The position numbers were made by a program, and so were the translations under genes. From Glutamicibacter sp. JC586 (GTDB lineage Bacteria; Actinomycetota; Actinomycetes; Actinomycetales; Micrococcaceae), in contig NZ_VHIN01000006.1 of assembly GCF_009805585.1 (NCBI RefSeq), positions 1 to 63,499 of the forward strand: a DNA stretch of 63,499 nucleotides. Direction: 5' to 3'. This document shows positions 36,471 through 54,149 of this stretch, piece after piece. Numbering within the stretch: position 1 is the stretch's first letter; each line of letters opens with the position of its first letter. Below the pieces are notes generated by a model. That model saw only the letters and a list, made by a program, of their open reading frames with translations. It did no database searches and was not told the DNA's origin.

Positions 36471-37104
36471 TATCGGCGCTTACTTAGTAGCCAACACTGC
36501 CAGCTGTACCCCACGCACCACACTGGAAGTAATCGAAGGTGCAGTAGCTGGTGGCATCGAATGGATCCAGCTGCGAGCCAAAGATGAGACCGCCCGCGAA
36601 TTCTTCGAACTGACCTGCGCTGCGGCCAGGCTAACCGAAGGCAAAGCGAAGCTACTGGTCAACGACCGCATTGACGTGTTCCTGGCAGCACGCGCGGCCT
36701 CTGCAGCTGTCAGTGGAATTCATATCGGTCAGAAGGATGTTCCGGTGCGTCTGGCACGTCAAATCATTGGCGAAGGCGTCATCGGGCTGAGCGCTTCCAC
36801 CGATGAACAGCTGTCACAGGCCAATCTTGATGCTGAAGTCATCGACTACCTAGGCGTGGGGGCAGTACGCGCTACCCCCACCAAAAAAGATCACCCCACC
36901 CCGCTGGGATTGGATGGGTTTACCCGCGCAGCCTCGCTGACCGAGTTGCCCTGTGTAGCTATTGGCGCAATCACTGCAGAGGATGCCACCGCAATCCGTG
37001 CAGGTGGCGGCTCCGGTCTAGCCGTCGTTCGGGCCATCTGCAACGCCGAGAATCCGCAAGAAGCTAGCGAGCAACTAGTTGCCGCATGGAAGGCAGCACA
37101 GTGA
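36463..37104 (+). CDS. thiE: Thiamine-phosphate synthase
   Basis: Couples HMP pyrophosphate and thiazole phosphate to thiamine phosphate. The 213-residue TIM barrel has QLRAKDETAREF near 32-43, VNDRIDVFLAARA near 66-78, GIHIGQKD near 85-92, SASTDEQL near 109-116 and the VVRAI end. It is coupled to thiM upstream and shares a GTGA overlap with the thiD-tenA fusion. ThiM, ThiD and TenA supply its two substrates by salvage; no thiC or thiG is in the window. Confidence 0.95.
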   Translation: MHNIGAYLVANTASCTPRTTLEVIEGAVAGGIEWIQLRAKDETAREFFELTCAAARLTEGKAKLLVNDRIDVFLAARAASAAVSGIHIGQKDVPVRLARQIIGEGVIGLSASTDEQLSQANLDAEVIDYLGVGAVRATPTKKDHPTPLGLDGFTRAASLTELPCVAIGAITAEDATAIRAGGGSGLAVVRAICNAENPQEASEQLVAAWKAAQ

Positions 37105-38528
37105 AAAACATTCTCTCCATCGCCGGCTCCGACCCATCCGGTGGCGCCGGAATCCAGGCGGACCTAAAAGCCATCGCCGCTAATGGTGCCTATGGTATGT
37201 CCGTCATCACCGCCCTGACTGCACAGAACACCCAAGGGGTCAGCGCGGTTCAGGCCATCGGCGGCGAGTTTGTCCTTGCCCAGCTTGAAGCCATCGGTGC
37301 TGATATACAGATTGATGCCATCAAGATTGGGATGCTGGCCAACGCCGATGTCATCCGGGCTGTCACCAGCTGGTTGGATTCCGTGGATGCCCCTGTCGTT
37401 CTTGACCCCGTCATGGTGGCTACCAGCGGGGATCGCCTCCTCGAGAATGAGACCGCGCTTGATTCTTTGCTCAACCGTGCCTCGGTAATTACCCCCAACC
37501 TATTGGAGCTGGCCACATTATTGCGCGAGCCCGCAGCTGACAACTGGGCTGATGTCCTAGAACAGGCCCAACGCCTGGCAGCCAAACATGACGTTCTAGT
37601 TTTGGCTAAGGGAGGGCATCTGGCCGAAGATCGTTGCCCAGACGCACTCGTTGAGGCCGAAGGGGTTGTAGCCGAGTTCAGTAATCCCCGGCATCACACC
37701 AAGAACACCCATGGCACCGGCTGTACCCTGTCCAGCGCTCTGGCCGGCCAGTACGCAACCACTGGTGATTGGGTGCAGTCTCTGGAAAATGCCAAGGCCT
37801 ACCTGTTCCGGGCCATCGGCACCGCCGATGAGCTCAACGTGGGTAGTGGGCACGGCCCGGTCAACCATTTTGCCGACTTCTTCGACGCTTCTGATCCAAT
37901 GCAGGATTGGTGGCAGCAAATCGAGGGCTTGCGTGAGTCCATCGATAATTTGGAGTTCATCACCCAGTTGGCCGACGGCACACTGGCACCAGCTGACTTT
38001 GAGCACTACCTCGCGCAAGACGCCTTATACCTTCAGCGTTACGCTCAGGTGTTAGCTGAGGCCAGTGCCCTAGCGCCCGAGCTTGATGCTCAGCGTTTCT
38101 GGGCCAACTCTGCCAGCCAGATCCTAGAGGGTGAACTTCAGTTGCACCGCAGCTACCTCGCCGAGGGAAGCGCCAACCCCAGCTCTATCACGCTGAACTA
38201 TGTGAACCACCTTGCGGCGTCAAAGCACAGTTACGGTGAGCTGATTGCGGCGATTCTGCCCTGCTACTGGCTGTATCAGGACATTGGCAAGCGCCTTGCT
38301 TCGGCCAATCATGAGCAACACCCCTATAACAAGTGGCTGGTTACCTATGCCTCGGAAGAATTCGACCTGGCTACCGAGCAGGCCATCAACATGGTGCGTA
38401 GCGCGTGGAAGAAAGCCGATGCGGACCAGCGCGAGCGAATGCGGCTTGCCTTTATGCGTTCTTCGGAGCACGAGGTGGCCTTCTTCGACCAGGCGCGAGT
38501 GAACCGAGTAGAATTCTCTACGGTCTAA
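37101..38528 (+). CDS. thiD: HMP/HMP-phosphate kinase fused to TenA
   Basis: A 475-residue fusion. Residues 1 to about 255 are ThiD (IAGSDPSGGAGIQADLK near 6-22, KGGHL, HGTGCTLSSAL near 208-218), which phosphorylates hydroxymethylpyrimidine twice. Residues about 265-475 are TenA, an aminopyrimidine hydrolase (thiaminase II) with the nucleophile Cys388 in ILPCYWLYQ and YASEEF further on. TenA turns degraded thiamine into HMP, which ThiD then uses. I start at GTG 37101, seven bases after AAGG and overlapping the thiE stop by four bases; an ATG 15 bases upstream lacks such a site. Confidence 0.95.
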   Translation: MKNILSIAGSDPSGGAGIQADLKAIAANGAYGMSVITALTAQNTQGVSAVQAIGGEFVLAQLEAIGADIQIDAIKIGMLANADVIRAVTSWLDSVDAPVVLDPVMVATSGDRLLENETALDSLLNRASVITPNLLELATLLREPAADNWADVLEQAQRLAAKHDVLVLAKGGHLAEDRCPDALVEAEGVVAEFSNPRHHTKNTHGTGCTLSSALAGQYATTGDWVQSLENAKAYLFRAIGTADELNVGSGHGPVNHFADFFDASDPMQDWWQQIEGLRESIDNLEFITQLADGTLAPADFEHYLAQDALYLQRYAQVLAEASALAPELDAQRFWANSASQILEGELQLHRSYLAEGSANPSSITLNYVNHLAASKHSYGELIAAILPCYWLYQDIGKRLASANHEQHPYNKWLVTYASEEFDLATEQAINMVRSAWKKADADQRERMRLAFMRSSEHEVAFFDQARVNRVEFSTV

Positions 38529-40057: not shown

Positions 40058-41464
40058 GTGACTGCGACAACATCAGACGGAAAACTCTCCGCGCGACTCA
40101 TCTTTATCGCCCTTGGGGCGGCACTAGGTGGGTTCGTTTTTGGATATGACTCATCAATCGTTAACGGCACCGTGGACGCTGTCGAGCACGAATTCGGGCT
40201 CAACGCGGTAACCATCGGTTTCACTGTTTCCTGCGCCTTACTCGGTGCAGCACTAGGGGCTTGGGTGGCCGGCATGGTCTCCCAACGTGTGGGACGCGTA
40301 CGCACCATGGTGTTCGCCTCCGCCCTCCTCATCATCTCGGCCATCGGCTGTGGCCTGTGCTTCAGCGCAGTTGACCTGATCGTTTGGCGTATTGTCGGCG
40401 GCATTGGCGTGGGCTTCGCTTCGGTAATTGCTCCGGCCTACATCGCCGAAATTTCCCCAGCAGCCGTCCGCGGCCGTCTGGGCACCATGCAACAGATGGC
40501 CATCGTATTGGGCATCTTCGTAGCATTCTTGGTCAGCGCGCTGCTGGTCTTCGTCATGGGCTCTGCCGATGCCACCGGCCTGTTCGGTCTGGCTGCTTGG
40601 CGTTGGATGTACCTCTCGCTGGTAGTTCCAGCAGTGATCTACGGGCTTATGGCACTTCGTCTTCCCGAGTCTCCTCGCTACCTCGTTGAGCGTGGACGCG
40701 TGGTTGAAGCTGCTGCGGTTCTGACCCGCGATATGGGCATGACCCCAGGCACAGAAACCGAGCAGAAGATCGAAGAGATTCGCTCTACCGTGCACGTAGA
40801 AAACCGTCAGAAGTTTAAGGACCTTTTGGGCCGCTTCGGCTTCCACCCACTGGTCTGGACCGGTATTCTACTTTCGGTTTTCCAGCAGTTTGTTGGCATC
40901 AACGTGATCTTCTACTACTCCACTACGCTGTGGAAGTCAGTAGGCTTCGCTGAATCGGATTCGTTCACGATTTCACTGATTACTTCGATCACCAACGTCG
41001 TGGCCACCGTCGTGGCAGTGCTGCTGATCGACGTGCTTGGACGTAAGCTGCTACTGACCATCGGTTCGGCAATTATGACCCTGTCTTTGGGCATGATGGC
41101 TATTGCCTTCGCCCAGTCGGTCACCGTCGACGGTGCCGTCTCCCTGCCTGGTAGCTGGGGCATCATCGCCCTGGTTTCGGCGAACCTGTTTGTTGTGGGC
41201 TTCGGTGCCACTTGGGGTCCAGCGGTATGGGTACTGCTCGGGGAAATCTTCCCGAACTCCATCCGAGCCATGGCCTTGGGTGTGGCAGCCGCCGCGCAGT
41301 GGATCGCCAACTTCGTTGTTTCCACCACCTTCCCGGCCCTGGCCGACGCAGGTCTGGCCCTGGCCTACGGCATCTACGCGGTCTTCGCATTACTCTCCTT
41401 GATCTTCGTGATCTTCATGGTCAAGGAAACCAAGGGACGCACCCTGGAAGACATGAAGCTGTAA
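40058..41464 (+). CDS. MFS sugar porter (sugar:H+ symporter)
   Basis: A 468-residue, 12-helix transporter of the sugar porter family. Hallmarks are GFVFGYDSSIVNG near 21-33, PESPRYLVERGR near 205-216 and the C-terminal VKETKGRTLEDM. Such proteins carry hexoses, pentoses or myo-inositol with protons. The start is GTG. A -10-like TAGCAT lies close upstream, suggesting a short leader. It converges on the phosphate-ester operon at a shared terminator, but has its own promoter. An inositol substrate would suit that neighbour but is only a guess. Confidence 0.9.
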   Translation: MTATTSDGKLSARLIFIALGAALGGFVFGYDSSIVNGTVDAVEHEFGLNAVTIGFTVSCALLGAALGAWVAGMVSQRVGRVRTMVFASALLIISAIGCGLCFSAVDLIVWRIVGGIGVGFASVIAPAYIAEISPAAVRGRLGTMQQMAIVLGIFVAFLVSALLVFVMGSADATGLFGLAAWRWMYLSLVVPAVIYGLMALRLPESPRYLVERGRVVEAAAVLTRDMGMTPGTETEQKIEEIRSTVHVENRQKFKDLLGRFGFHPLVWTGILLSVFQQFVGINVIFYYSTTLWKSVGFAESDSFTISLITSITNVVATVVAVLLIDVLGRKLLLTIGSAIMTLSLGMMAIAFAQSVTVDGAVSLPGSWGIIALVSANLFVVGFGATWGPAVWVLLGEIFPNSIRAMALGVAAAAQWIANFVVSTTFPALADAGLALAYGIYAVFALLSLIFVIFMVKETKGRTLEDMKL

Positions 41465-41480
41465 ACGTAACGTACTCAGA

Positions 41481-41513
41481 AGCACGGCGGAGCATGCTCC
41501 GCCGTGCTTTTTA
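41481..41513 (+). terminator. Terminator between the sugar porter and the phosphatase lipoprotein
   Basis: A perfect 28-base palindrome (41481-41508; 14-base arms, so about a 12-bp stem with a four-base loop) followed by TTTT. It serves the sugar porter and probably also the converging operon. Confidence 0.88.
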
Positions 41514-41519
41514 CTACCT

Positions 41520-42908
41520 TCATTCAGTGAGTTTGCTCAGGCACCGTTCAAGCTCTGTATCTTCATAAAAGAAGCTACCCTCTTCAACGGGCTTGCAATC
41601 AAAGCCGAACGGGATTTCCTTTTCGTTATACAACATCCGAACAATCACCTGCTGATCGTCATTTGAAAATACATCCCACTGGATGTTCGCCCCCATTGGG
41701 GCAACTTCCGCACCACGCCACTCATTAGTGTCATAACTGAACAACGTATCTGCTGGCTGTTGTTCTTCACTACCTGGTAGCTTGAGCAGTGCCGCCAACG
41801 GAATGAGTTCCTCTGCGTGGGCAAAGCGGAAATCTGCAGCCTGGGTGGTCTTACCCTCACGCACCCCAGCTACCGCATCAAGCATGTCCGTTAGCAACAC
41901 GTCGGCCATCTTGTAGGTGACATCGTTGCCGGCAATGCTCGGTCCCTTTTCGTAGAAGTCTTCGGCTTCTGAGACCCGCGAGAGCACTAGCGCGTCTTCG
42001 CTGGTGAGGAATTCACCGAAGTCGACTTGGTAGTCCTCACCCATACCCGGAGAGATCACATACAACTCGTAAAGGTACATGGCTGCATCCACTACGCTTT
42101 CCAGATGCTTCTCGCCTTTGCCGCGGTCCACCAAATCAATGGCTCCACTATCAAGCTTGGTAATGAACTCTTCGGTAAAGAGTCGCGAGAGCACATGCTT
42201 GGATGCGTCAACGATCTGCGGATCCTCTTCAACCTTCTCCAAGGTCTCAACCAGAACCGGGTCATTGTCGATGAAGTCGTTGTAGGCCTGATCTGTGTCA
42301 TGGAAATACAGCAGCTTTTTGTCCGTGCGTGGTTCACTGATCAGTGGCTTAATATCCTGATCTTCTTCAACTAGTCCCTGCGAAAAATTTTGCGCGCTAT
42401 CCACGGCACGGTCCACACCGGAGGTCACGATGTTGATCTTCTTCTGCTCGTCTTCGGCGCCCTCGAAAAGCCCCTCCATACGTTCGTAGGCGCGTTCAGC
42501 CATCTGCTGATGCTCGTGTTCTCCCTCGGTGCTTAGCATTCCGTAGCCAACCTTTTCGTGCACCGCGGTAATCTGCGCAACCACCGGACCCAAGCGTTCT
42601 CCGGTTTCGGTCAGGGCGTTTTCTTTCTTAGCCATTTCCCACAGTTGGGTGATGAGGTCGTCGTATTTTTTGCTCGAGAGCAATCGTGAACCATGTCGGG
42701 CCACATGCTCAATGAGTACTGGTTCGAACTCTTCTGGTGGCTGCGAATACTGCACATCTTGTACTGGGGCGGGATAGGTGGCCTTGGTACCCAAGGCCAG
42801 GCGTGCCGCCTGATCGTCATGGGCGGCTTGGCTCGGTGCGCTGCATCCGGTCAGGGCGAGCATCACCCCTGCCAGTGCTAGTGAGGTGAAACGAGTGTAC
42901 TTGGCCAT
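41520..42908 (-). CDS. MINPP-like histidine phosphatase lipoprotein (phytase-like)
   Basis: A 462-residue secreted lipoprotein: signal peptide with lipobox ALTGC (Cys22), then a branch-2 histidine phosphatase. The phosphohistidine motif RHGSR is at 71-75. The proton donor motif is HAE at 363-365 rather than the HD of AppA-type phytases; HAE is typical of multiple inositol polyphosphate phosphatases. It should remove phosphates from phytate or other phosphoesters at the cell surface. It starts six bases after AAGGAG and 33 bases after the LacI gene, so it is the last gene of the ABC operon. The exact substrate is inferred. Confidence 0.82.
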   Translation of the reverse strand: MAKYTRFTSLALAGVMLALTGCSAPSQAAHDDQAARLALGTKATYPAPVQDVQYSQPPEEFEPVLIEHVARHGSRLLSSKKYDDLITQLWEMAKKENALTETGERLGPVVAQITAVHEKVGYGMLSTEGEHEHQQMAERAYERMEGLFEGAEDEQKKINIVTSGVDRAVDSAQNFSQGLVEEDQDIKPLISEPRTDKKLLYFHDTDQAYNDFIDNDPVLVETLEKVEEDPQIVDASKHVLSRLFTEEFITKLDSGAIDLVDRGKGEKHLESVVDAAMYLYELYVISPGMGEDYQVDFGEFLTSEDALVLSRVSEAEDFYEKGPSIAGNDVTYKMADVLLTDMLDAVAGVREGKTTQAADFRFAHAEELIPLAALLKLPGSEEQQPADTLFSYDTNEWRGAEVAPMGANIQWDVFSNDDQQVIVRMLYNEKEIPFGFDCKPVEEGSFFYEDTELERCLSKLTE

Positions 42909-42941
42909 GCATTGCTCCTTGGGTGAGAGTGATGAGTGATT

Positions 42942-43937
42942 TTAGGGTTGTGCAGTTGAGGCGCGAGCCACCAGTTGCGGGGTGTAGAGCTCGCGCAGTG
43001 CTTGAGTACGTCCGGCGGTGCGTTCGGCAATCGCGTCCACGGCCCGGCGGCCCATATCGACCTGCGGCTGGTCGATACTGGTGAGGCTGGGGTAGAGCAA
43101 TCGGGCTAGGGCCGTGTTGTCATAGCCGATCACCGCTAGTTGCCCGGGCACCTGAACCTGCTGTTCATGGGCCAACCGGATCACTTCAGCGGCCGTTAGG
43201 TCGTTATTGCACAGCACCGCATCTATCCCGCTGGCGCTGAGCTGCTCTAGGTTTATGTCTTCTCCGCTCTCCACCTGAAGAATGGTGCACGGCAGCTTGG
43301 CTGCTTCAAGGGCCAGGACCACCCCATCGATACGTGCGTGGCTGGTCGCGCTGGCGGAGCGAGAGAGATAGGCGATGCGCTGGTGCCCGGCCTGAACCAA
43401 ATGTTCTACCGCTAGTTGGGCACCAGAGACATCGTCGCTGGCGATGGTGTCCACCTGCGCGGGTGGATCCGCCAAATGGGTGAGCACCACCGTCGGGACC
43501 TCACTGCCGGCACGTTCCAACACCTGACGTGGAACCCACGAAGAAACAATGACCAACCCATCAACCCGCAACTCGATCATGGTGTCGATTTGGCGTTCTA
43601 ACTCTTCGGGATTCTGTCCACCATTGCCGATAATCACCCGCGCATTCAGTTCCTTGGCGCGAGTCTGGACTCCCTGAACAATTCCGGTGTGGTGTTGGTT
43701 ATCGAGCTGATTGAGCACCACTCCCACCAGCCCGGAGACCCCGCGCACCAGTGAACGCGCCGCTGAATTAGGGCGATAGCCTAACTCTTGGGCAGCATCG
43801 AGCACTAGATCACGATTATTCGCGCTCACTCCGCCGTCCCCGCGGAGCGCCCGGGAGGCCAAAGACTTGGAGACTCCAGCACGTTTGGCCACATCAATAA
43901 TGGTCGGGCGGCGACCGGCCGTCAGTTCCGCTACCAT
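42942..43937 (-). CDS. LacI-family regulator of the phosphate-ester operon
   Basis: A 331-residue LacI/GalR regulator. The HTH and hinge are at about 10-70 (TIIDVAKRAGVSKSLASRAL, then SAARSLVRG), followed by a periplasmic-binding-protein-like effector domain. The true start is the ATG ending at 43937, just after the phosphatase stop; the open frame continues upstream only inside that gene. It probably acts on the two GGAACGTTCC operators at the head of the operon. The effector may be a sugar or polyol released by the encoded phosphatases. Confidence 0.9.
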   Translation of the reverse strand: MVAELTAGRRPTIIDVAKRAGVSKSLASRALRGDGGVSANNRDLVLDAAQELGYRPNSAARSLVRGVSGLVGVVLNQLDNQHHTGIVQGVQTRAKELNARVIIGNGGQNPEELERQIDTMIELRVDGLVIVSSWVPRQVLERAGSEVPTVVLTHLADPPAQVDTIASDDVSGAQLAVEHLVQAGHQRIAYLSRSASATSHARIDGVVLALEAAKLPCTILQVESGEDINLEQLSASGIDAVLCNNDLTAAEVIRLAHEQQVQVPGQLAVIGYDNTALARLLYPSLTSIDQPQVDMGRRAVDAIAERTAGRTQALRELYTPQLVARASTAQP

Positions 43938-43938
43938 C

Positions 43939-44763
43939 TCAGCTACCAACCCGAATGCGGGTGAATTCCTCGACAAAATGGTCCAGTGCCGGGTAGTGCG
44001 CACCGGGCCCCTGGGCGACGAACGCCGGGGCAAGGTGTTCGCCCATTTCTCCCGCGTCGAGCAACAGTGGCTGATAGCTGCCTCCGGCGCGTTGGACAAT
44101 CAACGCACCAGCGGCCACATCCCAAGGATTCACCGAACCACCAAAGGCACAGTCCACCCATCCGGCGGCCACATGGGCCAGGGTCAATGCGCCTGAACCG
44201 GTGCGCCGCAGTGAGGAGAACGCCTCAGCGAGATCACCAAAGTGACCCAATGCAGTCTCCCTATCAGCTTCGAGATCCCGGGCCGTGGGGTACCCAGTGA
44301 TCATGGTCGCTGCCGCTGCCGGCTGTGTCGCCGGGGTGCGCAGGATCTGACCATCTAGGTAGGCATGTTCATGATCGGCGCTAAAGAGTCGTCGTGCTAT
44401 CGGATCAAAGATCGCCCCGGCCACCAGTTCGCCATCCACGGCGACTCCGATAGAGACACAGAAGAAAGCTAGACCCTGAGCAAAGTTGGAGGTGCCATCG
44501 ATTGGATCCACATACCAGGTCACCGGGCCTTGCCCGCCCTGGGCTCCACCTTCTTCACCGATGATTCGCCAGCTAGGATCACGTTCTAGCAAAAACGGCA
44601 CAATCAACTCTTCGGCGGCTCGGTCATGTTCGGTGACCAGGTCGTGGCGGTCGCGCTTGTAGTCGATGTCCATCTGACCGCGGAATACCTTTTGCAAATA
44701 TTCTCCGGCGAGAAGGGCGGCTTCTTCGGCGGTGGTACGCAGGAGGCTGGGCAGTTCAGGCAC
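43939..44763 (-). CDS. Inositol monophosphatase family enzyme
   Basis: A 274-residue Mg-dependent, Li-sensitive-type phosphomonoesterase. Metal-binding motifs are GEEGG at 69-73, DPIDGTSNF at 86-94 and NPWDVAAG near 211-218. Family members act on inositol phosphates, histidinol phosphate, fructose bisphosphate or PAP. Its start overlaps the HAD gene by eight bases. Being inside an operon with an importer and a MINPP-like phosphatase, a cytoplasmic sugar or inositol phosphate phosphatase is the best guess. Confidence 0.9.
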   Translation of the reverse strand: MPELPSLLRTTAEEAALLAGEYLQKVFRGQMDIDYKRDRHDLVTEHDRAAEELIVPFLLERDPSWRIIGEEGGAQGGQGPVTWYVDPIDGTSNFAQGLAFFCVSIGVAVDGELVAGAIFDPIARRLFSADHEHAYLDGQILRTPATQPAAAATMITGYPTARDLEADRETALGHFGDLAEAFSSLRRTGSGALTLAHVAAGWVDCAFGGSVNPWDVAAGALIVQRAGGSYQPLLLDAGEMGEHLAPAFVAQGPGAHYPALDHFVEEFTRIRVGS

Positions 44764-45523
44764 TGTACTTTCTCATTTCATTCAGTAATTCTTGGGGTGT
44801 GGCGACCACGAGGTCGGCAGTCACCTCAACGGTGTAGGGGCGTTTGGCGCTTCCCGGGGAGGGCATCAGCACGTTGCCACCAATCCCGGCGCGCACCCCG
44901 CATAGGACATCGCGATCCAGGTGGTCCCCGACATACCAGCAGTCGGCGGCACTCAGCCCCAGCGCCTGGGCACCCAGATGCAGGAAGTCCGGGTTGGGTT
45001 TACGCAGCTCACACTCATCGGAATACAGTTCGGCAACAAAATAGTCGCTGAGCTTTTGTTCTGCCAGATAGTCGCGGTGCACCTGCCCACACATGGCATT
45101 GGAGACCACTGCCACCGGCAAGTCGATTTTTGCGCACCAGGCCAATAGCTCGGTGATACCCTCACGTAGTTCGCGGTGCTCCTTGGTGAAGCTGATCAGG
45201 TAGCACAGCTGCTGATAGTGAGCTTCGATGGTACGACGAGCTTCTTCGGGCCAGTCCGCGGCGATGAAGTCCAAAACGTAGGTGTGCTGGTCTAGTTCTT
45301 TGGGGTGGCGCGGCCGGGACATGGCATTGCGCCAGAGCCCAGCGGCCACCGCCCCGGCGGTGATGTCTGCGATCAACCGGTCGCGTGAGACCATGGGTTC
45401 TGATCCGATCAGTACCAGGAACTCATCGGCCACCAATTGCTGCCAGTTCGCCGGTTTTTCGCTGTTGACAATGACTCCGCCGAAATCTAAAAGTAGGCCT
45501 TTGGGCAATGCTTGCAAGCTCAT
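44756..45523 (-). CDS. HAD-family phosphatase (YihX-like)
   Basis: A 255-residue HAD hydrolase with the nucleophile Asp13 in LLLDFGGVIVN, where the usual second Asp is Gly, as in glucose-1-phosphatase-like members. VVSNAMCG near 126-133 is motif II, and CWYVGDHLDRDVLCG near 199-213 is motif IV. A helical cap covers about 20-100. It is coupled to the ATPase gene by a four-base overlap and to the inositol-phosphatase-like gene by eight bases. The second phosphatase in the operon; substrate unknown. Confidence 0.85.
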   Translation of the reverse strand: MSLQALPKGLLLDFGGVIVNSEKPANWQQLVADEFLVLIGSEPMVSRDRLIADITAGAVAAGLWRNAMSRPRHPKELDQHTYVLDFIAADWPEEARRTIEAHYQQLCYLISFTKEHRELREGITELLAWCAKIDLPVAVVSNAMCGQVHRDYLAEQKLSDYFVAELYSDECELRKPNPDFLHLGAQALGLSAADCWYVGDHLDRDVLCGVRAGIGGNVLMPSPGSAKRPYTVEVTADLVVATPQELLNEMRKYSA

Positions 45524-46599
45524 GCTGCTACCGCCTCTACATTTCTCACGCGTTCTCCCGTGGCATCAAAGAGGTGCAGTTTCTGTGCGAGGGCCTGCAC
45601 CTGTTGTCCCTCGGCGAGCGCTGGGCGTTGCTGTGAGGTGGCGAAGTAACGCCGCTCACCGTCACTCAGCTCGATAATCCACGAACCACCGGTGGGCAGT
45701 AGTGCACTGACCGTTACGGACAAGGAGAATTTCCCGGGCGTCGGCGTCGTGGTGATGTGCAGGTCTTCAGGCCGGATACCCAGTGACGTTGCGGTGGAGT
45801 CCATTGACTTCATCCAGGTATCTGCGGATTGGTTGTGCCCCGATTCAATGATGTTCATCGGTGGACTTCCCATGAATTCTGCGACAAACCGATTGGCTGG
45901 GGAATCGTAGATCTCGCTGGGGGATCCGACCTGTTGGATCCGTCCCTGATCCATCACCACAATTCTGGTAGCCAAGGTCATGGCCTCAAATTGGTCGTGG
46001 GTTACAAAAACCATCGTGTTACCGGTATCCCGATGGAGCCGCTGAAATTCTGCACGCATTTCTAGACGCAGTCGGGCATCGAGGTTGGAGAGCGGCTCAT
46101 CTAAGAGCATCACCTGCGGGCGTGCTGCCAGTGTTCGGGCAATGGCCACACGCTGTTGCTGCCCGCCGGAGAGCTCCCCGGGGTAGCGGTCAGCTAATTC
46201 GCTAATCGACAAGGTCGCCAGGGCCTGGTCCACAAGGGTTGCACGTTCGGCTTTGGCTAGCTTTTGCACGCGCGGGGCAAAACCCACGTTGTCTTTGACA
46301 TTGAGGTGCGGCCATAGCGCGTAGTTCTGGAACACCAATCCGAGTCCGCGGCGCTCGGCAGGAACACACTTACCTCCGGGCACGTCGTCGAAGGTGGTCC
46401 CGTTCACCACAATTTCGCCGGTTGTGGGATGTTCCAGCCCTGCGATCATGCGTAGTGTTGTGGACTTGCCGCACCCCGACGGTCCCAGCAGGCATAGGAA
46501 CTCCCCTCGTTCCACCTCAAGGTCTACGTCCTGTACGCTCGGGCGGCGGCTCCCAGAGTATGTTTTGCCCAAGCCTCGCAAACTGATCATCGGCTCCAT
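45520..46599 (-). CDS. ABC transporter ATPase (Fe3+/hexose-phosphate type)
   Basis: A 359-residue nucleotide-binding subunit: Walker [10 protein letters not shown] at 39-47, signature LSGGQQQR at 143-150 and Walker B MLLDEP ending in Asp167-Glu168. A C-terminal TOBE-like regulatory domain follows from about 275. It is of the CysA/FbpC/PotA group. The start MEPMISL at 46599 follows AAGGAG by five bases; the longer frame enters the binding-protein gene. It powers the two-domain permease encoded upstream. Confidence 0.93.
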
Positions 46600-46622
46600 A
46601 TGAACTCCTTGTCGCTGTGCTT

Positions 46623-47780
46623 TTACTTGGCCGAGGTGCGCCACAGGTCTTGCCAGATTTCGCGTGATGCCCAGTCGGTTTCCAGCCCAGCGTTATCAAA
46701 CTGGAAGATTTCATTGAGGTGTTTTCCTACATGGGCAGCGTCTTCAGGCTGTTTGATCGACGAGTTTGCCGAGATCTTTCCATCGGAGATCTGAGGTTCG
46801 ATGCCCTCTTGAGTCAGTACGAAGTGTACAAAGAGCTTGGCGGCATTGGGGCTCTTGCTACCCGAGGCAATAGTCAGTGACTTAGGCGAGGCCTTGCCCA
46901 CCCATGGAACCAACCCTTCACACACACCAAGGGAGTAACCCTTTTCCTCAATATTTCGGTACTTCGCGCTGGACATCAGTGCCATCGGAGGATCATCCTG
47001 CCCGCCTGCTCCCACCGCTTCGGAAGCCTCTTCACTGGATTTGGTAAGGATCGGCTGATTGGCAGCCATTCGAGAAACCCATTCTGCAGCGGCCGAATCC
47101 TTGTCGGTTACCAGGTCCTCACCGAATGCTTCCTTATAGGCATCGCGGAGTTGCTGGTCACCGAACTGTGCCATCTGGCTGTACCAGTCCAGAGCCCCGT
47201 TATCACCGACGGGGTCCTGGAAGGCGACCTTCTTAGTGAATTTCTCCGTGGTGAAGTCCCATATGTTGGTTGCTGGGCAGGTATTAAAAGCCTCGGTGTT
47301 ATAGGTCCAGAAGCTCGGGTCGGTAATCATGACCAATGGTTCTTGCATCGAAGCATCGATATTCGGGGCTAGGTCTGCCGGGACCCAGTTGGTGACAAAG
47401 TTATTGGGCAACAGCTGGTTTTTGACCGCGGGTAGATCAGAAATCGCCACGACGTCCCCAACCACATTTCCGGCCTGTGCTTCCCGGGTCACTTTTTCAA
47501 TGGCTTCGGCCGCATCAGTTTTCACGCCGGTGGCTTTGATCCCGTAAGCCTTGGTAAAAGCAGCAGCCATGTCTTCTACCTTGGAAGTGCTGTCGTAAAT
47601 GGTAATCGGGCCTTCTGCCTTAGCTGCTGAGATTAGTTGGTCCAGATCAAAATCTTCAGCAGACTGGGCCACGGGTGCAGTGGTGGCCGCCGGGGCCTGG
47701 CCAGCGCAGCCGGTGAACAACAGGGCGCTCAGCCCTAGGCCCACAACGGTGGTCCATCGGTGAGTTGATGTAGTGCTCAT
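46623..47780 (-). CDS. ABC transporter substrate-binding lipoprotein (AfuA/iron-type fold)
   Basis: A 385-residue binding lipoprotein; signal peptide with lipobox LFTGC (Cys25). The mature part (GPITIYDSTSKVEDMAAAF from about 55, WTYNTEAF near 160) is of the Fe3+/polyamine/phosphonate cluster of binding proteins. In that cluster AfuA is known to bind hexose phosphates. The iron-binding paired tyrosines near the C-terminus are not apparent. Second gene of the operon, after the permease. Ligand inferred to be a phosphorylated compound. Confidence 0.88.
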   Translation of the reverse strand: MSTTSTHRWTTVVGLGLSALLFTGCAGQAPAATTAPVAQSAEDFDLDQLISAAKAEGPITIYDSTSKVEDMAAAFTKAYGIKATGVKTDAAEAIEKVTREAQAGNVVGDVVAISDLPAVKNQLLPNNFVTNWVPADLAPNIDASMQEPLVMITDPSFWTYNTEAFNTCPATNIWDFTTEKFTKKVAFQDPVGDNGALDWYSQMAQFGDQQLRDAYKEAFGEDLVTDKDSAAAEWVSRMAANQPILTKSSEEASEAVGAGGQDDPPMALMSSAKYRNIEEKGYSLGVCEGLVPWVGKASPKSLTIASGSKSPNAAKLFVHFVLTQEGIEPQISDGKISANSSIKQPEDAAHVGKHLNEIFQFDNAGLETDWASREIWQDLWRTSAK

Positions 47781-47825
47781 GGTGAGGCTCCTTAGATATT
47801 GGTACTGCGGTGGATGATGTTTGGC

Positions 47826-49658
47826 TCAACCCAGCGAATCTGCCAGGTTGCTTCGAAAGAGTTTCTGTGTCGCCCAGGTGCCCAAGAGGGCTATTGCGCA
47901 GATCATGACCACTACCGCGTTGGCGGCATGGCTATAACCGAAGTCGATGAGAGTCATGGACAGCGTGGTCATGAGTTCCGTACCTGGCGTCGCCAAGATA
48001 ATCACCAGACTCAATCCTTGAACTCCGGAGACGAAGGGCAGCAGGGTTGCGCTGGCCAACGAACTACGCACCATGGGCAGTATTACCGTGCGTAGGCGAT
48101 AGCCGAACCGTGCACCAAGACTCTGAGCTGCTTCTTCGCTTTCCGCCCCGAGCTGCATCATGGCAGTGACCCCGGCCCGGGAAGCAAAGGGCATTTCGTC
48201 GGCGATCATGATCAAAATCAGAATGGTTGCCGTGCCATACAGCGCCGGGATGGGGCCACGGGGCACCGCGAAGAGGGAGAGATAAGCTACCGCAAAGGCT
48301 AGTCCGGGAACGAGGTAAGGCATGAAGGTGATCACGCGCAGTGCCGTGCCCAACTGTCGCAGGGGAGAGCGCACCACTACATATCCCACGAGCAACCCGA
48401 GTAGGCCAGTGCATAATGCCGCTAGGCCCACCATCCACACGGTATTCCACACTGCACGCCAGGTTGCGGCCGAAACCAATACGCCTTGGCTGAAACCAAC
48501 GGTTGGGAGATCATGGCCTATCCAATAATCCGCGGTGAAGTTTTGTACGGAAAAGTCCCCCGGAACCCGCATCACGGTGGAAAGTACCAAAGTGCCTAGC
48601 GGTATCAGTACTGAAATAGTGAAGAGCAGGCTAACCACGGCCAACGCCGGAATACGCCAACGGATCAACGGTTCAGTTTGGGTGAGCGTTGCCTTGCCGT
48701 TAAGGGTTGTAAAGCGTTGGGCCTCGCGCAGGAACCTCAGATCAACCATCAGTGAGATGCCGCCTAAGGCCACCATCACGGCGGCGATCACCGCGGCGAT
48801 TCCAGATTGCTGGGTTGAGATACTTTGGTGCAACGTGGTGGACAGAACCTGAAATCCTGCCGGAAGTCCCAGAACATAGGCCACACCAAATTCGCCGATG
48901 GCTTTGGCGAACATGAGGGTAGCCGCGGAGAGAAGAGCAGGGCGTAGCAGGGGCAAGGTCACCCGCCACCACCGTTGTTGTGCACTGGCGCCACTGATCC
49001 GAGCGGCCTCATCGAGTTGCCCAGGAAGATTTTTCAGGGCGTTGGAGACTAGAAGGATCACAAACGGTGTGAAGTGCAGGGAAAAGATCACGATTATCGG
49101 AACTGGGCCGTAAGCCAACCAATTCGGCGGTTCCCAGCCGAGGGTTTCCATCCAGCCTTGTTGGCCGGCGTTGCTGCGGTTTCGGAAGATCGTGGTCCAG
49201 GCCAAGGCGAAGGTCCAGGCCGGCAGCATATAAGGAACGATCAGCGCGCTAGCGAACCATCTCCGGGCGGGTAAATCGGTGCGGACCAGTAGCCAGGCCA
49301 CGGGAACTCCCACTGCCAGCGCGATAAGCATCGAGCACAGTGAAACCCAGAGGGTATTGAGCAGCGGCGTGTAAAAAATAATGTCCGAGACGGGGGAGGA
49401 AAAAACTCGGTCAAGGTAATATCCGGTGAGCGTCCCGGCTGATGCTCCAGCCTTCGCTTCATCGCCAAATCCCACCTGGATCGCACCTAGTAACAGGGAA
49501 ATCACTGGGGCAAGGATGAGGTACCCAAATATCAATAGAAGAAGGACCCCAAGCAACGTAGCTGGGTGACGAAGAATAATTCTGGCGCGGTAACGCGGTG
49601 AATCTTGTGTTGATTTAGCTGATGTGGAACGTTCCCTTTGTGGCGTAAGCAGTGCCAT
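47826..49658 (-). CDS. Two-domain ABC permease
   Basis: A 610-residue permease holding two consecutive MetI-type membrane domains of about six helices each (about 45-310 and 345-600). Each has an EAA-like loop (DEAARISGASAQQRWWRVTLP near 235, and EEAAQSLGARFGYRLRTVILP near 520). This one-chain layout is known for FbpB and AfuB. The start MALLTPQRE follows GGAGG by five bases; the longer frame has no support. It is the first gene of the seven-gene operon, and codons about 8-12 contain a LacI-type operator. Confidence 0.92.
   Translation of the reverse strand: MALLTPQRERSTSAKSTQDSPRYRARIILRHPATLLGVLLLLIFGYLILAPVISLLLGAIQVGFGDEAKAGASAGTLTGYYLDRVFSSPVSDIIFYTPLLNTLWVSLCSMLIALAVGVPVAWLLVRTDLPARRWFASALIVPYMLPAWTFALAWTTIFRNRSNAGQQGWMETLGWEPPNWLAYGPVPIIVIFSLHFTPFVILLVSNALKNLPGQLDEAARISGASAQQRWWRVTLPLLRPALLSAATLMFAKAIGEFGVAYVLGLPAGFQVLSTTLHQSISTQQSGIAAVIAAVMVALGGISLMVDLRFLREAQRFTTLNGKATLTQTEPLIRWRIPALAVVSLLFTISVLIPLGTLVLSTVMRVPGDFSVQNFTADYWIGHDLPTVGFSQGVLVSAATWRAVWNTVWMVGLAALCTGLLGLLVGYVVVRSPLRQLGTALRVITFMPYLVPGLAFAVAYLSLFAVPRGPIPALYGTATILILIMIADEMPFASRAGVTAMMQLGAESEEAAQSLGARFGYRLRTVILPMVRSSLASATLLPFVSGVQGLSLVIILATPGTELMTTLSMTLIDFGYSHAANAVVVMICAIALLGTWATQKLFRSNLADSLG
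49623..49636. promoter_or_regulatory. LacI-type operator inside the permease gene
   Basis: TGTGGAACGTTCCC with the palindromic core GGAACGTTCC, lying 22-36 bases into the permease coding sequence. Identical over 14 bases to the site at 49779-49792, in the same orientation. Confidence 0.7.
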
Positions 49659-49778
49659 CAAATCCTCCGCGTGCTCGCCGTGCCTCATGCCAGCAGGGAG
49701 AATTCCCGGGCACAATCACGAGATTAGGGAGGCTAAACGACGCGTAGATGGCATAAAGGTGAACGATTCGATACTGCT

Positions 49779-49792
49779 TGTGGAACGTTCCC
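49779..49792. promoter_or_regulatory. LacI-type operator upstream of the phosphate-ester operon
   Basis: TGTGGAACGTTCCC, core GGAACGTTCC, 121 bases before the permease ATG. The CG-centred palindrome is typical of LacI-family sites. A weak -10 (TAAGAT on the minus strand, 49802-49807) lies just upstream; no good -35 is seen. Confidence 0.75.
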
Positions 49793-49822
49793 ATCTGAGG
49801 GATCTTAAAAACGCTGATGCCA

Positions 49823-49860
49823 ACAAGGGCTGCCGCTCTTATAGGAAGGGCAGCCCTTGT
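49823..49860 (-). terminator. Hairpin after the GH65 fusion gene
   Basis: A perfect 12-bp stem (49823-49834 with 49849-49860) with a 14-base loop, 30 bases past the stop of the disaccharide phosphorylase gene. The T-run is weak. Confidence 0.6.
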
Positions 49861-49890
49861 CAGCTTGCACTACTTAGAAGAATTTGCGTT

Positions 49891-52800
49891 CTACCAAGCC
49901 TTGCGGGGTACATCGATCCCCGCCTCGCTTTGCACTTCAAGGACCTTATCTAAGGTCGGACGCCCAACACGCACCGGACCCTGATCCGCCAGGGGAATCG
50001 TGATCGACTGCCCAGGAAATAGATCTATTTGCTCGTCGCGAACCCAGATCGGGCGGGAGTGGGCTCCTTCAAGGGTGAACTGGATAGAGTCCTTCTCCAA
50101 GCGCACCGCAATACTCATGCCGTGCCAGGCTAGGTTGAAGCTAATTGAACGCCACTGCTCAGGCAGGCGCGGGTCAAAGCACAGCCGGTCATCGTCATCG
50201 CGCAATCCGGCAAAACCGTAAATCAGCGCGGACCACACACCACCGGTGGAGGCCACATGAATCCCGTCCCCGGTATTACCGTGCAAGTTCTCCAAATCCA
50301 CGTTCAGCGCATGTTCGAAGTATTCCCACGACAGTTCGCGGTAACCCACTTCGGCAGCCAATATTGACTGCACCGTGGCAGAGAGCGTGGAGTCTCCCGT
50401 AGTCAGCGGATCATAGTAGTTAAAGTCCGCAAGCTTTTGTTCGGCGGTGAAGTCACTGGAGCGAAGCCACAGGGCCAGCACCGCGTCGGCCTGCTTGATC
50501 ACCTGGAAACGGTAGATCACCAGTGGGTGATAGTGCAGCAGTAGTGGTCGCTTATCAGGTCCGGTGTTTTCCAGATCCCACACTTCACGGTTCAAAAAGT
50601 GCTCATCCTGCGGGTGAATACCCACCGATTCCGAGTACGGAATGTGCATGCAGTCCGCCGCCTTGAGCCACAAGGCAATTTCCTCGGCTTCAAGTTTCAA
50701 CGACTCAGCCAACTTGGCATAGCGTTCGGGGTGCGCCAAGGCCAGTTCGGTGAGCAGTTGGGCGCTTCGGCGAAGGTTAAACCGCGCCATGACATTGGTA
50801 TATAGGTTGTCGTTGACCACCGCAGTGTACTCATCAGGACCGGTCACCCCGTGAATATGGAAACGCTCGTTGCCTTCCTGACCGCGCCAGAAACCCAACG
50901 AAGCCCACATTCGGGCGGTTCCTACCAAGATCTCAGCTCCACCAGCGAGCAGGAATTCATCATCATCCATCACGCTCAGGTAGCGGTTCAGCGAATAAAC
51001 GACGTCCGCGTTGATGTGATACTGCGCAGTTCCTGCTGGGTAGTAGGCGCTGGCTTCTTCACCGTTGATGGTGCGCCATGGGAAGAGCAACCCTTCCTCA
51101 TTCATGATCCTGGCCCGGCGGGTAGCCGCCGGAATCATCGCCACCCTGGCTCGCAGGGTATTACGCGCCCATTGCTGGTTGGTATAGGTCAAGAACGGCA
51201 TCACATAGATTTCTGTATCCCAGAAGTAGTGTCCGGAATAACCGTTGCCGCTCACGCCCTTGGCGCTAATTCCTAGCCCGTCAGCACGACCGGCAGCCTG
51301 AGCCAACTGGAAAAGATTCCAACGGATCTTGCGTTGCATGGTTGTGTCGTCGGTTTCCACCACAACATCGCTACGCTTCCAGAAATCGGCCATGAATGCG
51401 CGCTGGGTGCGTAGGTGCTCGTCCATGCCCTGTTCTACCAAATGATCCAGCGCACGATCTGAACGTAGCAGCATTTCTTGGGCCGGATGGCGGCGCGAAC
51501 AGTTGTAGACCGCGAACTTGGAGACACGAATTCCTTGGCCGGTCTCAAGTCGGGCGCTGATGACCTCATCGGCTCGCTCCTCGGCGCTATTTCGGGTGAT
51601 GTGCAGATCCTGCTGCGCCCCACCGGTGGTGGCGACTTTGTGTTCCACCACCGTGGCTACCGACATCCCTGAACCTGGGACTTGATAGGAGACGCCGAGC
51701 CGCGAATCATTCACCGAATTACCGGCTGGACGCAGCGGGTTAACGCTGGCTTCTTCACTCTTGCGTGGGTCCCAAACCCCAGCATTCGACGCGTCAGTCT
51801 CCGCCGGAGTTGCGACGGTACGCGCGGAACTGTAGCCAATGACCGAAGACTGCACGAGCACGCGCGCCGGAGCGTCGAGTAGGCGTACGTGGACATCCTG
51901 GAGTGCTAAGTGACGGTCAGTGAAGGAAATCATGCTGCGAGCCATTACCGCGACGCGGTGCCCCTCTGCGGTACGCCACAAGGTGCGGGCGCACAGGGTG
52001 CCGTCGCGGAAGTCCAAACGTAGCTCGTCGTTCAACATCTCGGTACGCCCGACTTCCAGGGCCTCATCGTTGATGAATACGCGCATGGTTCGAAAGTCTG
52101 GCGCGCTGATCATGGTCTGTCCGGTTTCGGCTAGGCCGAAAGCACTTTCTGCGTGCCGAATCTCCCAGGCCTCATGCAATCCGTTGATGAACGTGCCCCC
52201 ACTTTGGTCACCGAGACCCAGCTGGGCGGCCCGTGAACCAAGGAAACCGTTACCGAGAGAGAAGACGGTATCTTGAGCGCCATCGGTGTCTCGGTTTTCA
52301 TCGCGCAGCAACGACCAAGGGTCGGTTTCCCATGCCGTGGCCGATTCCTCGGTGGCTAGTTCTGCCAGGTCTTCGATGACAAAGTGGGCTCCTGCTTCAA
52401 GTAGTTCAGCCTCATTGTCTTCCCGTGCCACACCGATCACACCAAAACCACCGGCGCGCGCAGCGGCCACTCCGCTGGTGGCATCTTCAATGACCACACA
52501 TTCTTCGGGGCGCCAGCCCAGGTCAGCGGCGGCAGCTAGGAAGGTGTCTGGGGCGGGCTTGCCAGGCAGAGACCGGGTGGCGGCTTCTTGTCCGCTCATC
52601 ACCATCGGGAAGTGTTCCTCCAAGCCAGCGGCGGCCAACACCGTGCGTGCATTGCGTGAGGAAGACACCACGGCAACGTCTAGCCCGGCATCCAGGACTT
52701 GCTTGAGGAAAGCCACCGAACCCGCATAGGGCTCAATCCCGTCACGCGTGAGCACTTCGGTGAACTTGTCGTTTTTCATATTGCCCAAGGCACAGACGGT

Positions 52801-53079
52801 GTCTTGGCCCGCCGGATCATCCACGGTGCCCCACGGAAGTTCTATGCCGCGTGAAGCAAGTGTGGCTTGGACCGCGTCATACCGTGGGCGTCCGTCAAGC
52901 AACTCAAAATAGTCTTGGTCGGTGTAACTGGCCACGCCCGGGTATTGGTCAAAAAAGGCGGTGAAGAGTTCATGCCACGCCTTGCGATGAAGCAACGCGG
53001 TCGGGGTGATCACACCATCCAAATCAAAGAGGACGGCTTTGTAATCACGGTGTCGGTACTCAGGTCGATAAGCGTTCAC
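49891..53079 (-). CDS. HAD (beta-phosphoglucomutase-like) / GH65 disaccharide phosphorylase fusion
   Basis: A 1062-residue two-enzyme chain. Residues 1 to about 250 are a HAD domain of the beta-phosphoglucomutase type (LFDLDGVITPTA near 17-28, VVIEDATSGVAAARAG). Residues about 270-1062 are a GH65 phosphorylase, with the catalytic acid Glu750 in GVTGPDEYT. GH65 splits trehalose, maltose or kojibiose with phosphate to beta-glucose-1-phosphate, which the HAD part can isomerise to glucose-6-phosphate. The start is GTG, eight bases after AAGGA; the longer frame runs into the divergent gene. Which disaccharide is used cannot be told by eye. Confidence 0.93.
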   Translation of the reverse strand: MNAYRPEYRHRDYKAVLFDLDGVITPTALLHRKAWHELFTAFFDQYPGVASYTDQDYFELLDGRPRYDAVQATLASRGIELPWGTVDDPAGQDTVCALGNMKNDKFTEVLTRDGIEPYAGSVAFLKQVLDAGLDVAVVSSSRNARTVLAAAGLEEHFPMVMSGQEAATRSLPGKPAPDTFLAAAADLGWRPEECVVIEDATSGVAAARAGGFGVIGVAREDNEAELLEAGAHFVIEDLAELATEESATAWETDPWSLLRDENRDTDGAQDTVFSLGNGFLGSRAAQLGLGDQSGGTFINGLHEAWEIRHAESAFGLAETGQTMISAPDFRTMRVFINDEALEVGRTEMLNDELRLDFRDGTLCARTLWRTAEGHRVAVMARSMISFTDRHLALQDVHVRLLDAPARVLVQSSVIGYSSARTVATPAETDASNAGVWDPRKSEEASVNPLRPAGNSVNDSRLGVSYQVPGSGMSVATVVEHKVATTGGAQQDLHITRNSAEERADEVISARLETGQGIRVSKFAVYNCSRRHPAQEMLLRSDRALDHLVEQGMDEHLRTQRAFMADFWKRSDVVVETDDTTMQRKIRWNLFQLAQAAGRADGLGISAKGVSGNGYSGHYFWDTEIYVMPFLTYTNQQWARNTLRARVAMIPAATRRARIMNEEGLLFPWRTINGEEASAYYPAGTAQYHINADVVYSLNRYLSVMDDDEFLLAGGAEILVGTARMWASLGFWRGQEGNERFHIHGVTGPDEYTAVVNDNLYTNVMARFNLRRSAQLLTELALAHPERYAKLAESLKLEAEEIALWLKAADCMHIPYSESVGIHPQDEHFLNREVWDLENTGPDKRPLLLHYHPLVIYRFQVIKQADAVLALWLRSSDFTAEQKLADFNYYDPLTTGDSTLSATVQSILAAEVGYRELSWEYFEHALNVDLENLHGNTGDGIHVASTGGVWSALIYGFAGLRDDDDRLCFDPRLPEQWRSISFNLAWHGMSIAVRLEKDSIQFTLEGAHSRPIWVRDEQIDLFPGQSITIPLADQGPVRVGRPTLDKVLEVQSEAGIDVPRKAW

Positions 53080-53135
53080 GATCGAAATCCTTCGAAAGAG
53101 GAGCAAATTACTAGCCGTAGTCCATACGGTAGCAA

Positions 53136-54149
53136 GTGAACACGTTTGCATCGACATACTACGATAAGAATGTGGCACAGTGGATAGATTTGTTCAACAG
53201 CGATACCTGGCGTGAGTCGACCGCACAATGGATCGACTCAGCATGCGAGGCCTACGGGATTAAGCGCACCGCTCCCCCTCAGTTCGCGCCTGCTCAATTG
53301 CACCAGATTCAGGCCTCGGTGAAGACCGATGCAGCTGATCTGATTTTTACTGCCAACGCCCCTGGGCTGGCTGCCGAACCGGCCATCACGGTGACCGCGG
53401 GCCAATTTTTGCCCGACCGTGTGGTGGTACCACTAGCCGTGGATCGCAGTGCAGGTTACATGCTCAGTCCTGATTTTGGTCATTCGCTGGCCGATCTTGG
53501 TGACTCCGTGGAGCACTGGGAGATGGCCATGGCTTCCCTAGGCTCCTTCCAAGTCGCTCTAATGGGCCACGAAGATGAATTTTTCGACTCCGGGGTGACC
53601 GTGGTGGACCCGCAGTTCCTGCCAGAGCAATTTGAGCAGGCATTGATGATGCATGTTTCGTTGCCACCCGAGCACCCATTGCATATTGATGGTGCTCACG
53701 CAGATCACCTGGCCGGTCACATCGACGAACTATCACGTGCCTGCAGCATCTTGCATGACGGACCGGTACCGCTGAGCCTGGAACATGGCAACTTTGATCT
53801 TTCCCAGGTGGTTGTTCCCGGCCAGGCGGGCGAACACGGACGCATCTTGAACCTGTCTTCGGCGCATTGGGCTCACCCATTCTCGTCCCTAAATGTTGCT
53901 CTTCAGGCAATGACCGAAGCTTGGGATTGTGACACCAATGACGAGCGAGTCATGCAGGTGTTGTTCTCCTACTTGGATCAGTTTGCGGCTTACGGCACCG
54001 CCGATGAACTGTACGAGCTGATCGACCCAGCGTGCCTGGTCGCTCCACTGTCTCAGCACGAGACCTGGCTGCGCCTATTGCTGGATGCTGACGATGACAA
54101 GCTACGAGAATATGCTCCCGCCGTTCTTGGAACGCTGGATCTAGCGTAG
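53136..54149 (+). CDS. APH-fold pseudokinase-like protein
   Basis: A 337-residue protein with a faint aminoglycoside-phosphotransferase/maltokinase pattern. The segment LSLEHGNFDLSQVVV (about 209-223) matches the catalytic HGDxxxxN loop, and ILNLSSAHWAHPFSSL (about 234-249) matches the metal-binding IDWxxA...HPxxDL loop. However, the catalytic Asp is Asn, the Asn is Gln and the metal Asp is Asn, so it may be inactive. It diverges from the GH65 gene over 56 bases. The GTG start follows a -10-like CATACGGT closely, perhaps leaderless. An unrelated fold cannot be excluded. Confidence 0.5.
   Translation: MNTFASTYYDKNVAQWIDLFNSDTWRESTAQWIDSACEAYGIKRTAPPQFAPAQLHQIQASVKTDAADLIFTANAPGLAAEPAITVTAGQFLPDRVVVPLAVDRSAGYMLSPDFGHSLADLGDSVEHWEMAMASLGSFQVALMGHEDEFFDSGVTVVDPQFLPEQFEQALMMHVSLPPEHPLHIDGAHADHLAGHIDELSRACSILHDGPVPLSLEHGNFDLSQVVVPGQAGEHGRILNLSSAHWAHPFSSLNVALQAMTEAWDCDTNDERVMQVLFSYLDQFAAYGTADELYELIDPACLVAPLSQHETWLRLLLDADDDKLREYAPAVLGTLDLA

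Follow-up and report, generated by a model that had tools for sequence, protein, structure and literature searches.

The stretch of DNA analysed here (the window; 63,499 nucleotides of contig NZ_VHIN01000006.1 from Glutamicibacter sp. JC586) carries a compact seven-gene operon that very probably encodes an inositol-phosphate scavenging system, built around a transporter of a type usually annotated as "iron". Open reading frame (ORF) and Pfam analysis placed seven adjacent ORFs on the reverse strand between positions 41520 and 49658, encoding a two-domain ATP-binding cassette (ABC) permease, a lipoprotein solute-binding protein (SBP), an ABC ATPase, a HAD-family enzyme, an inositol monophosphatase (IMPase) family enzyme, a LacI-family regulator, and a MINPP-type histidine phosphatase (Table 1). 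The permease and SBP genes are separated by 45 bases and the SBP and ATPase genes by 23, the ATPase/HAD and HAD/IMPase junctions overlap by 4 and 8 bases, and gaps of 1 and 33 bases precede the LacI and MINPP genes, respectively. The tightly packed single-strand arrangement proposed in a first-pass annotation of this DNA was thus confirmed in its coordinates, families, overlaps, and short gaps. Across positions 41300-50000, no sigma-70-like promoter was found (4.2 expected in shuffled sequence), and terminator-like matches occurred at chance level (8 versus 7.6). None of the NCBIfam rows examined for the seven proteins (the best 25 rows for three of them) reached its cut-off; the top row for the permease was PhnU2, at 153.5 bits under a cut-off of 593.25.

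Table 1. Operon genes and regulatory features, with positions in the window
Feature	Position	Strand	Basis and remarks
Upstream operator	49779..49792	-	Palindrome GGAACGTTCC inside TGTGGAACGTTCCC; kept in L001, L038, and L002
Second identical operator	49623..49636	-	156 bp downstream of the first; in the first permease codons if the start is ATG 49658
Two-domain ABC permease	47826..49658	-	PF00528 (BPD_transp_1), two stretches
Lipoprotein SBP, marker of the conserved system	46623..47780	-	PF13416 (SBP_bac_8); LFTGC lipobox by eye
ABC ATPase with TOBE domain	45520..46599	-	PF00005, PF08402
HAD-family enzyme	44756..45523	-	PF13419; motif I DFGG
IMPase-family enzyme	43939..44763	-	PF00459 (Inositol_P), E 1.9e-49
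LacI-family regulator, presumed binder of both operators	42942..43937	-	PF00356, PF13377
MINPP-type histidine phosphatase, probable lipoprotein	41520..42908	-	PF00328 (His_Phos_2); RHGSRLL, HAE, LYNE
Perfect 28-bp palindrome, possible transcription end	41481..41508		Between the converging MINPP and sugar-porter genes; read from the sequence; terminator scan gave no score

The MINPP-type protein matched solved MINPP structures over its full length in a PDB search (7zgf, E 3.3e-83; 6rxd, E 1.9e-74). Its sequence retains the RHGXRXh catalytic motif as RHGSRLL, the HAE proton-donor triplet in place of HD (FRFAHAEELIP), and the LYNE motif (MLYNEKEIPF), while the place of the PMAAN motif reads PMGAN, with one change. 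In the available text of the two sources, RHGxR, HAE, and LYNE are named as MINPP motifs across PMC9432691 and PMC7762957, and LYNE and PMAAN in PMC9432691. Similarity and motifs therefore bear out the MINPP type of what had been called a secreted MINPP-like histidine phosphatase, but the protein carries an LTGC lipobox, recognized by eye, and so is probably a surface-anchored lipoprotein rather than a freely secreted enzyme. From these sequence features, it would be predicted to act as a phytase on inositol polyphosphates.

The IMPase-family enzyme scored 169.1 bits against a Pfam cut-off of 27, and its metal-site motifs GEE, DPIDGTxNF, and WD are intact, with E70, E71, D86, D89, and D215 invariant in all eight aligned sequences. 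It failed both the inositol-1-monophosphatase equivalog NF008027 (125.3 bits, cut-off 332) and HisN TIGR02067 (136.5 bits, cut-off 275.15).

Searching the PDB with the SBP as a single sequence returned chance matches only. A profile of 15 relatives found 8x1a, deposited as an iron(III) binding protein, as the best match and AfuA (4r72, E 1.5e-9) as the second, followed by further ferric-binding proteins, in agreement with the earlier assignment of the transporter to a type matching iron and hexose-phosphate (AfuABC) transporters. Adjacent iron-ligand tyrosines mark FbpA-type ferric binding proteins. Of the iron-ligand tyrosines that the first-pass annotation had regarded as telling, no adjacent pair is present in the window SBP and none is conserved in the 15 relatives, which disfavors an iron ligand. 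Because the SBP lies near AfuA by profile, and AfuA binds hexose phosphates (PMC4546632, available text) while P5PA binds pyridoxal phosphate (PMC8427247, available text), the transporter plausibly imports an organophosphate, as systems of the AfuA/P5PA type do; we do not claim membership in AfuABC, and the stretch of AfuA containing His205, Asp206, and Glu229 falls outside the profile alignment.

At the operon head, the identical 14-mer TGTGGAACGTTCCC occurs twice, and its core GGGAACGTTCCAC is found at both places in the window and in L001, L038, and L002, with a spacing of 156 to 158 bp in otherwise diverged DNA. The previously noted operator pair therefore holds as two identical sites kept in three relatives, but its downstream member falls within the permease frame if translation starts at ATG 49658. 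The pattern TGGAACGTTCC has five matches in the own genome against one for a reversed-pattern control. The three matches beyond the operon sit inside open frames (judged by eye), one of them near its frame start, which makes a LacI target beyond the operon possible. Together, the conserved pair and the location of the other matches fit a repressor role for LacI that is mainly local and exerted at the two operators, and the gene set is probably self-regulated in this way; a role for LacI as a global regulator found no support. Between the operators (49740-49770), the window and three relatives also share a conserved GTTCAC(C/T)TT motif, which we take to resemble half a PHO box, and in L003 the GGAACGTTCC palindrome lies 10 bp ahead of the ATPase start.

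To follow the system beyond the window, the SBP was used as a marker. Matches, own genome included, were present in 4 of 18 genomes of the genus and 11 of 295 of the family (E<=1e-10), in 7 of 396 of the order and 13 of 394 of the class (E<=1e-30), and in 23 of 250 genomes of family f35 and 2 of 22 of the family of G752 (E<=1e-60), the family, order, class, and f35 sets being samples of larger groups. Plasmid records yielded 158 matches (E<=1e-20), mostly rhizobial, with others from Klebsiella, Erwinia, Vibrio, and Thioclava. From these we assembled a clade A set of 43 loci, comprising 32 genome loci (window included, all found at ~39% identity or more) and 11 plasmid loci hand-picked from the 158 records for taxonomic spread. 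Twelve loci at ~30% identity served as clade B controls (left out were G088, G137, G040, G540, G871, G1001, and a second G115 place). In a tree of 61 SBP sequences, 49 clade A sequences (42 loci; the decayed L098 was left out) were separated from the 12 of clade B by a 100/100 branch, with L035 on a long branch.

Neighboring genes were tallied by six-frame search of the loci with profiles built in this analysis, counting the first fetched stretch of each locus. IMPase genes were present at 29 of the 43 clade A loci, and phytase-type genes likewise at 29 (MINPP at 7, beta-propeller at 21, AppA/Agp-like at 1), two of these kinds being clear (MINPP and beta-propeller) and one possible (AppA/Agp-like). 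One or both accompanied the SBP at 42 of 43 loci, the sole exception being the decayed Agrobacterium copy L098, whereas in clade B neither IMPase, phytase-type, HAD, nor dual-specificity phosphatase (DSP) genes were found at any of the 12 loci, and one iolC-profile (PfkB) match was recorded, at L052. The first-pass annotation had stated that a lack of such co-occurrence in relatives would refute its proposal, and the proposal withstood this check. HAD or DSP genes were found at 28 clade A loci, iolB or iolC at 18, and the permease at 39. When ten f35 loci were extended, permease, ATPase, HAD, and IMPase genes appeared in the next stretch in 10/10 cases, raising the IMPase total to 39/43; the remaining exceptions are L044, L116, and L118, which reach contig ends, and L098. 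A MINPP match at E<=1e-40 was obtained for 4 of the 295 genomes in the family of the window, and exactly these four have the full operon.

The composition of the clusters varies by lineage. L040 and L041 carry SBP, permease, ATPase, HAD, and MINPP genes together with a GntR gene and IMPase. Beta-propeller phytase genes occur at 21 of the 23 f35 loci, identified at L042 by PF02333 (E 3.6e-57) and at the others by similarity. Proteobacterial loci combine the transporter with one to three SBPs, an IMPase, and a DSP in the place of the HAD enzyme. On the Klebsiella plasmid, the cluster also includes a KdgM porin and an enzyme of the His_Phos_2 family, which is 16% identical to the window MINPP and looks AppA/Agp-like by eye; its role could be that of a phytase or of a sugar phosphatase. 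The Vibrio locus has a porin as well as a MINPP-like enzyme that carries HAE. Two fusions were detected, each in a single lineage: HAD and IMPase in one 580-amino-acid ORF in Actinobaculum suis, and IMPase and DSP in one ORF on the Klebsiella plasmid (DSPc score 30.9, just under the cut-off of 33.5).

Several loci show further peculiarities. In Actinobaculum suis (L003:70-2069) the permease is spread over three ORFs, and this copy may be broken, while Agrobacterium tumefaciens pAt (L098:8451-10870) retains decayed-looking transporter and SBP fragments without IMPase. Two rhizobial clusters (L088:1935-5379 and L097:740-4239) also encode a calcineurin-type metallophosphoesterase and a Na/Pi cotransporter with a PhoU domain, which perhaps exports surplus phosphate freed in the cell. 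In clade B, an RpiR-like regulator adjoins the SBP at L036 and L048, the latter also carrying a branch-1-like histidine phosphatase (by eye), and L053 is a further transporter locus.

Inositol catabolism genes also recur, with iolB/C/E/G-type genes and beta-propeller phytase lying beside the SBP clade in other lineages. Most f35 clusters contain inositol catabolic genes, iolB or iolC being present in 16 of 23 first stretches, and the L042 iolB and iolC products, scoring 291.1 and 369.1, exceed their NCBIfam cut-offs. The most complete f35 loci (L107, L111, and L114) unite iolC, iolE, iolG, GntR, phytase, SBP, transporter, HAD, and IMPase genes. At L035, from the family of the window, the transporter and IMPase genes are transcribed away from iolE-like and iolC genes, with neither HAD nor DSP found there; at L039, one side holds a second SBP and iol-type genes and the other transporter, SBP, IMPase, HAD, and IMPase genes. 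The transporter is thus conserved with IMPase, phytase-type, and iol genes across two phyla.

Collectively, the tally of 42/43 versus 0/12, the coincidence of MINPP with the full operon, and the iol neighbors support the scavenging scheme first suggested for this operon, namely cleavage outside the cell, import, and cytoplasmic dephosphorylation. The recruitment of unrelated phytases by one transporter clade, together with two nonhomologous second phosphatases, is difficult to account for with any ligand other than an inositol phosphate. In the proposed mechanism, the surface-anchored MINPP would dephosphorylate extracellular phytate or other inositol polyphosphates, and the lipoprotein SBP would bind a lower inositol phosphate (InsP1 to InsP3, with InsP1 as a first guess). 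The two-domain permease and ATPase would then bring the captured compound into the cell, where IMPase and the HAD enzyme could convert it to inositol and phosphate, with LacI repressing the operon at its two operators as long as no inositol compound is available. The ligand, the direction of each step, and the inducer are our predictions from gene content.

Several observations weigh against this interpretation. The 43 clade A loci are not independent, as 23 come from one family (f35). In the first stretch of 14 of them, the MINPP, AppA-like, and beta-propeller profiles, which could miss other classes, found no phytase-type gene; these 14 include every alphaproteobacterial plasmid locus whose cluster is intact, seven in all (L088-L091 and L095-L097). 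Phytate therefore need not be the source common to all loci; the ligand in common can be a lower inositol phosphate. Phosphate esters of other kinds are also possible substrates for IMPase-family enzymes, and the HAD enzyme departs from the DxD that constitutes motif I of HAD phosphatases: it reads DFGG (DxG) in the window and four relatives, the L002 row being truncated at that Asp, with the Gly invariant in six aligned rows. With the usual phosphatase Asp missing at motif I, HAD phosphatase activity is not assured; active HADs with DxG are known. Apart from P5PA, every named ABC-class PDB match of the SBP profile has an entry labeled as an iron or plain ABC binding protein, and the AlphaFold2 model of the SBP (window plus L001-L003) was unusable at a pLDDT of 38. 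On the catabolic side, the L042 iolE and iolG products score under their NCBIfam cut-offs, and IolB (TIGR04378) has no match in the window genome (G000) while being present in the other three operon holders (G004, G005, and G016). Across the genus, IolB occurs in 3/4 operon holders versus 6/14 other genomes, which is no strong link, and the iolC-bearing cluster of the window genome is not a standard iol operon. Given the missing IolB match, phosphorus gain may outweigh carbon in this strain, or the inositol may go to other uses. The cluster in question (L063:6732-12769) contains an iolC equivalog with levoglucosan-dehydrogenase-like (below cut-off), iolE-like, and LacD-like aldolase genes, and may represent a variant cyclitol or anhydrosugar pathway.

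Among the alternatives, the closest is that the ligand is not a monophosphate but InsP2, InsP3, or another inositol-containing phosphate such as glycerophosphoinositol, with the extra phosphatases removing more than one group. We regard this as a less likely but serious candidate, which for InsP2 and InsP3 overlaps with the scavenging scheme preferred here. It accords with the HAD or DSP genes at 28 of 43 loci and with several alphaproteobacterial loci that add a metallophosphoesterase, some also a Na/Pi cotransporter, where no phytase-type gene was seen. BlMINPP, moreover, may stop at InsP3 according to the available part of PMC7762957; however, AppA ends at inositol 2-phosphate (Ins2P) and the product of the Acinetobacter AC1-2 MINPP is assumed to be Ins2P in the available parts of PMC9432691 and PMC7762957, and the window operon shows no phosphodiesterase gene. 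Import of a hexose or heptose phosphate as in AfuABC, with phosphatases serving sugar phosphates generally, appears improbable: AfuA is the second profile match, and a beta-phosphoglucomutase/GH65 fusion (by eye) lies upstream in the window, but this neighbor was not found at the full-operon locus L002, and it is phytase-type and iol genes that recur beside clade A (the systematic search did not extend to hexose genes). Iron uptake from ferric phytate, in which the phytase would free iron for an FbpABC-type importer, appears highly improbable, for although 8x1a heads the profile matches and annotated plasmid relatives call the permease an "iron ABC transporter permease", the tyrosine pair is absent, the linked IMPase, the IMPase fusions, and the iol genes stay unexplained, and AfuA itself was initially mistaken for an iron protein (PMC4546632, available text).

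A broader proposal extends the inositol-phosphate scavenging interpretation. The operon may represent a widespread, unrecognized class of bacterial ABC importers that are specialized for inositol phosphates, go under iron-transporter annotations, and take up a phytase-resistant end product (e.g., Ins2P, with its axial phosphate), while a second cytoplasmic phosphatase, HAD in Actinomycetota and dual-specificity in Proteobacteria, removes what IMPase cannot. Phytases of different folds outside the cell would in this way be linked to inositol catabolism inside it; we advance this proposal tentatively, judging it somewhat more likely to fail than to hold. The pairing with a second phosphatase would make sense if IMPase left the axial 2-phosphate of Ins2P untouched; a literature search on this point returned no match.

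A major share of soil organic phosphorus is stored as phytate, and accounts of its use by bacteria usually place the dephosphorylation outside the cytoplasm. The iol systems known so far import inositol in its free form. The window operon would share myo-inositol with them as an intermediate, and iolB/C/E/G-type genes accompany clade A elsewhere, but it differs from them in the predicted imported compound and in a genome without an IolB match; iolT is named in connection with inositol uptake in the available text of PMC12482443. With the bacterial MINPP phytases (BlMINPP, PMC7762957; Acinetobacter AC1-2, PMC9432691; available text) the window MINPP shares RHGxR, HAE, LYNE, and full-length similarity, whereas its gene shares an operon with those for an importer and for cytoplasmic phosphatases, and it is a probable lipoprotein where BlMINPP has a sortase-type anchor (PMC7762957). 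AfuABC, a cyclic hexose/heptose-phosphate ABC transporter, resembles the system in its iron-type ABC architecture, profile-related SBP, organophosphate ligand (predicted here), and history of iron annotation; it differs in its low sequence similarity, and the available part of PMC4546632 mentions no phytase, IMPase, or HAD partners. P5PA/P5PB, a pyridoxal-5-phosphate transporter, is likewise AfuA-like with a phosphorylated ring ligand, but the ligand is another one and the available part of PMC8427247 mentions no phosphatase partner. Among the literature matches listed (titles and abstract openings, with subscription journals thinly covered), no bacterial inositol-phosphate ABC importer was described, and searches with S. 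meliloti SMb tags gave nothing useful. The nearest earlier idea found is that a Caulobacter HlyB-family transporter may carry derivatized inositols such as inositol phosphates (PMC2597717, available text). Were an importer devoted to inositol phosphates confirmed, it would account for the way a phytase-producing cell recovers the end product of its enzyme, call for revising a set of "iron transporter" annotations in rhizobia and elsewhere among bacteria, and provide testable genes for the use of phytate as a source of phosphorus and carbon.

Two flanking genes were considered as parts of the system and rejected. Neither the upstream GH65/beta-phosphoglucomutase-like gene nor the downstream sugar porter was found in 21 kb around the complete L002 operon (E<=1e-6); the former, a large fusion at 49891-53178, is shared with L001 and L038. 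Farther away, the window encodes thiamine salvage genes at 35676-38528, comprising hydroxyethylthiazole kinase ThiM and a ThiD/TenA-type protein.

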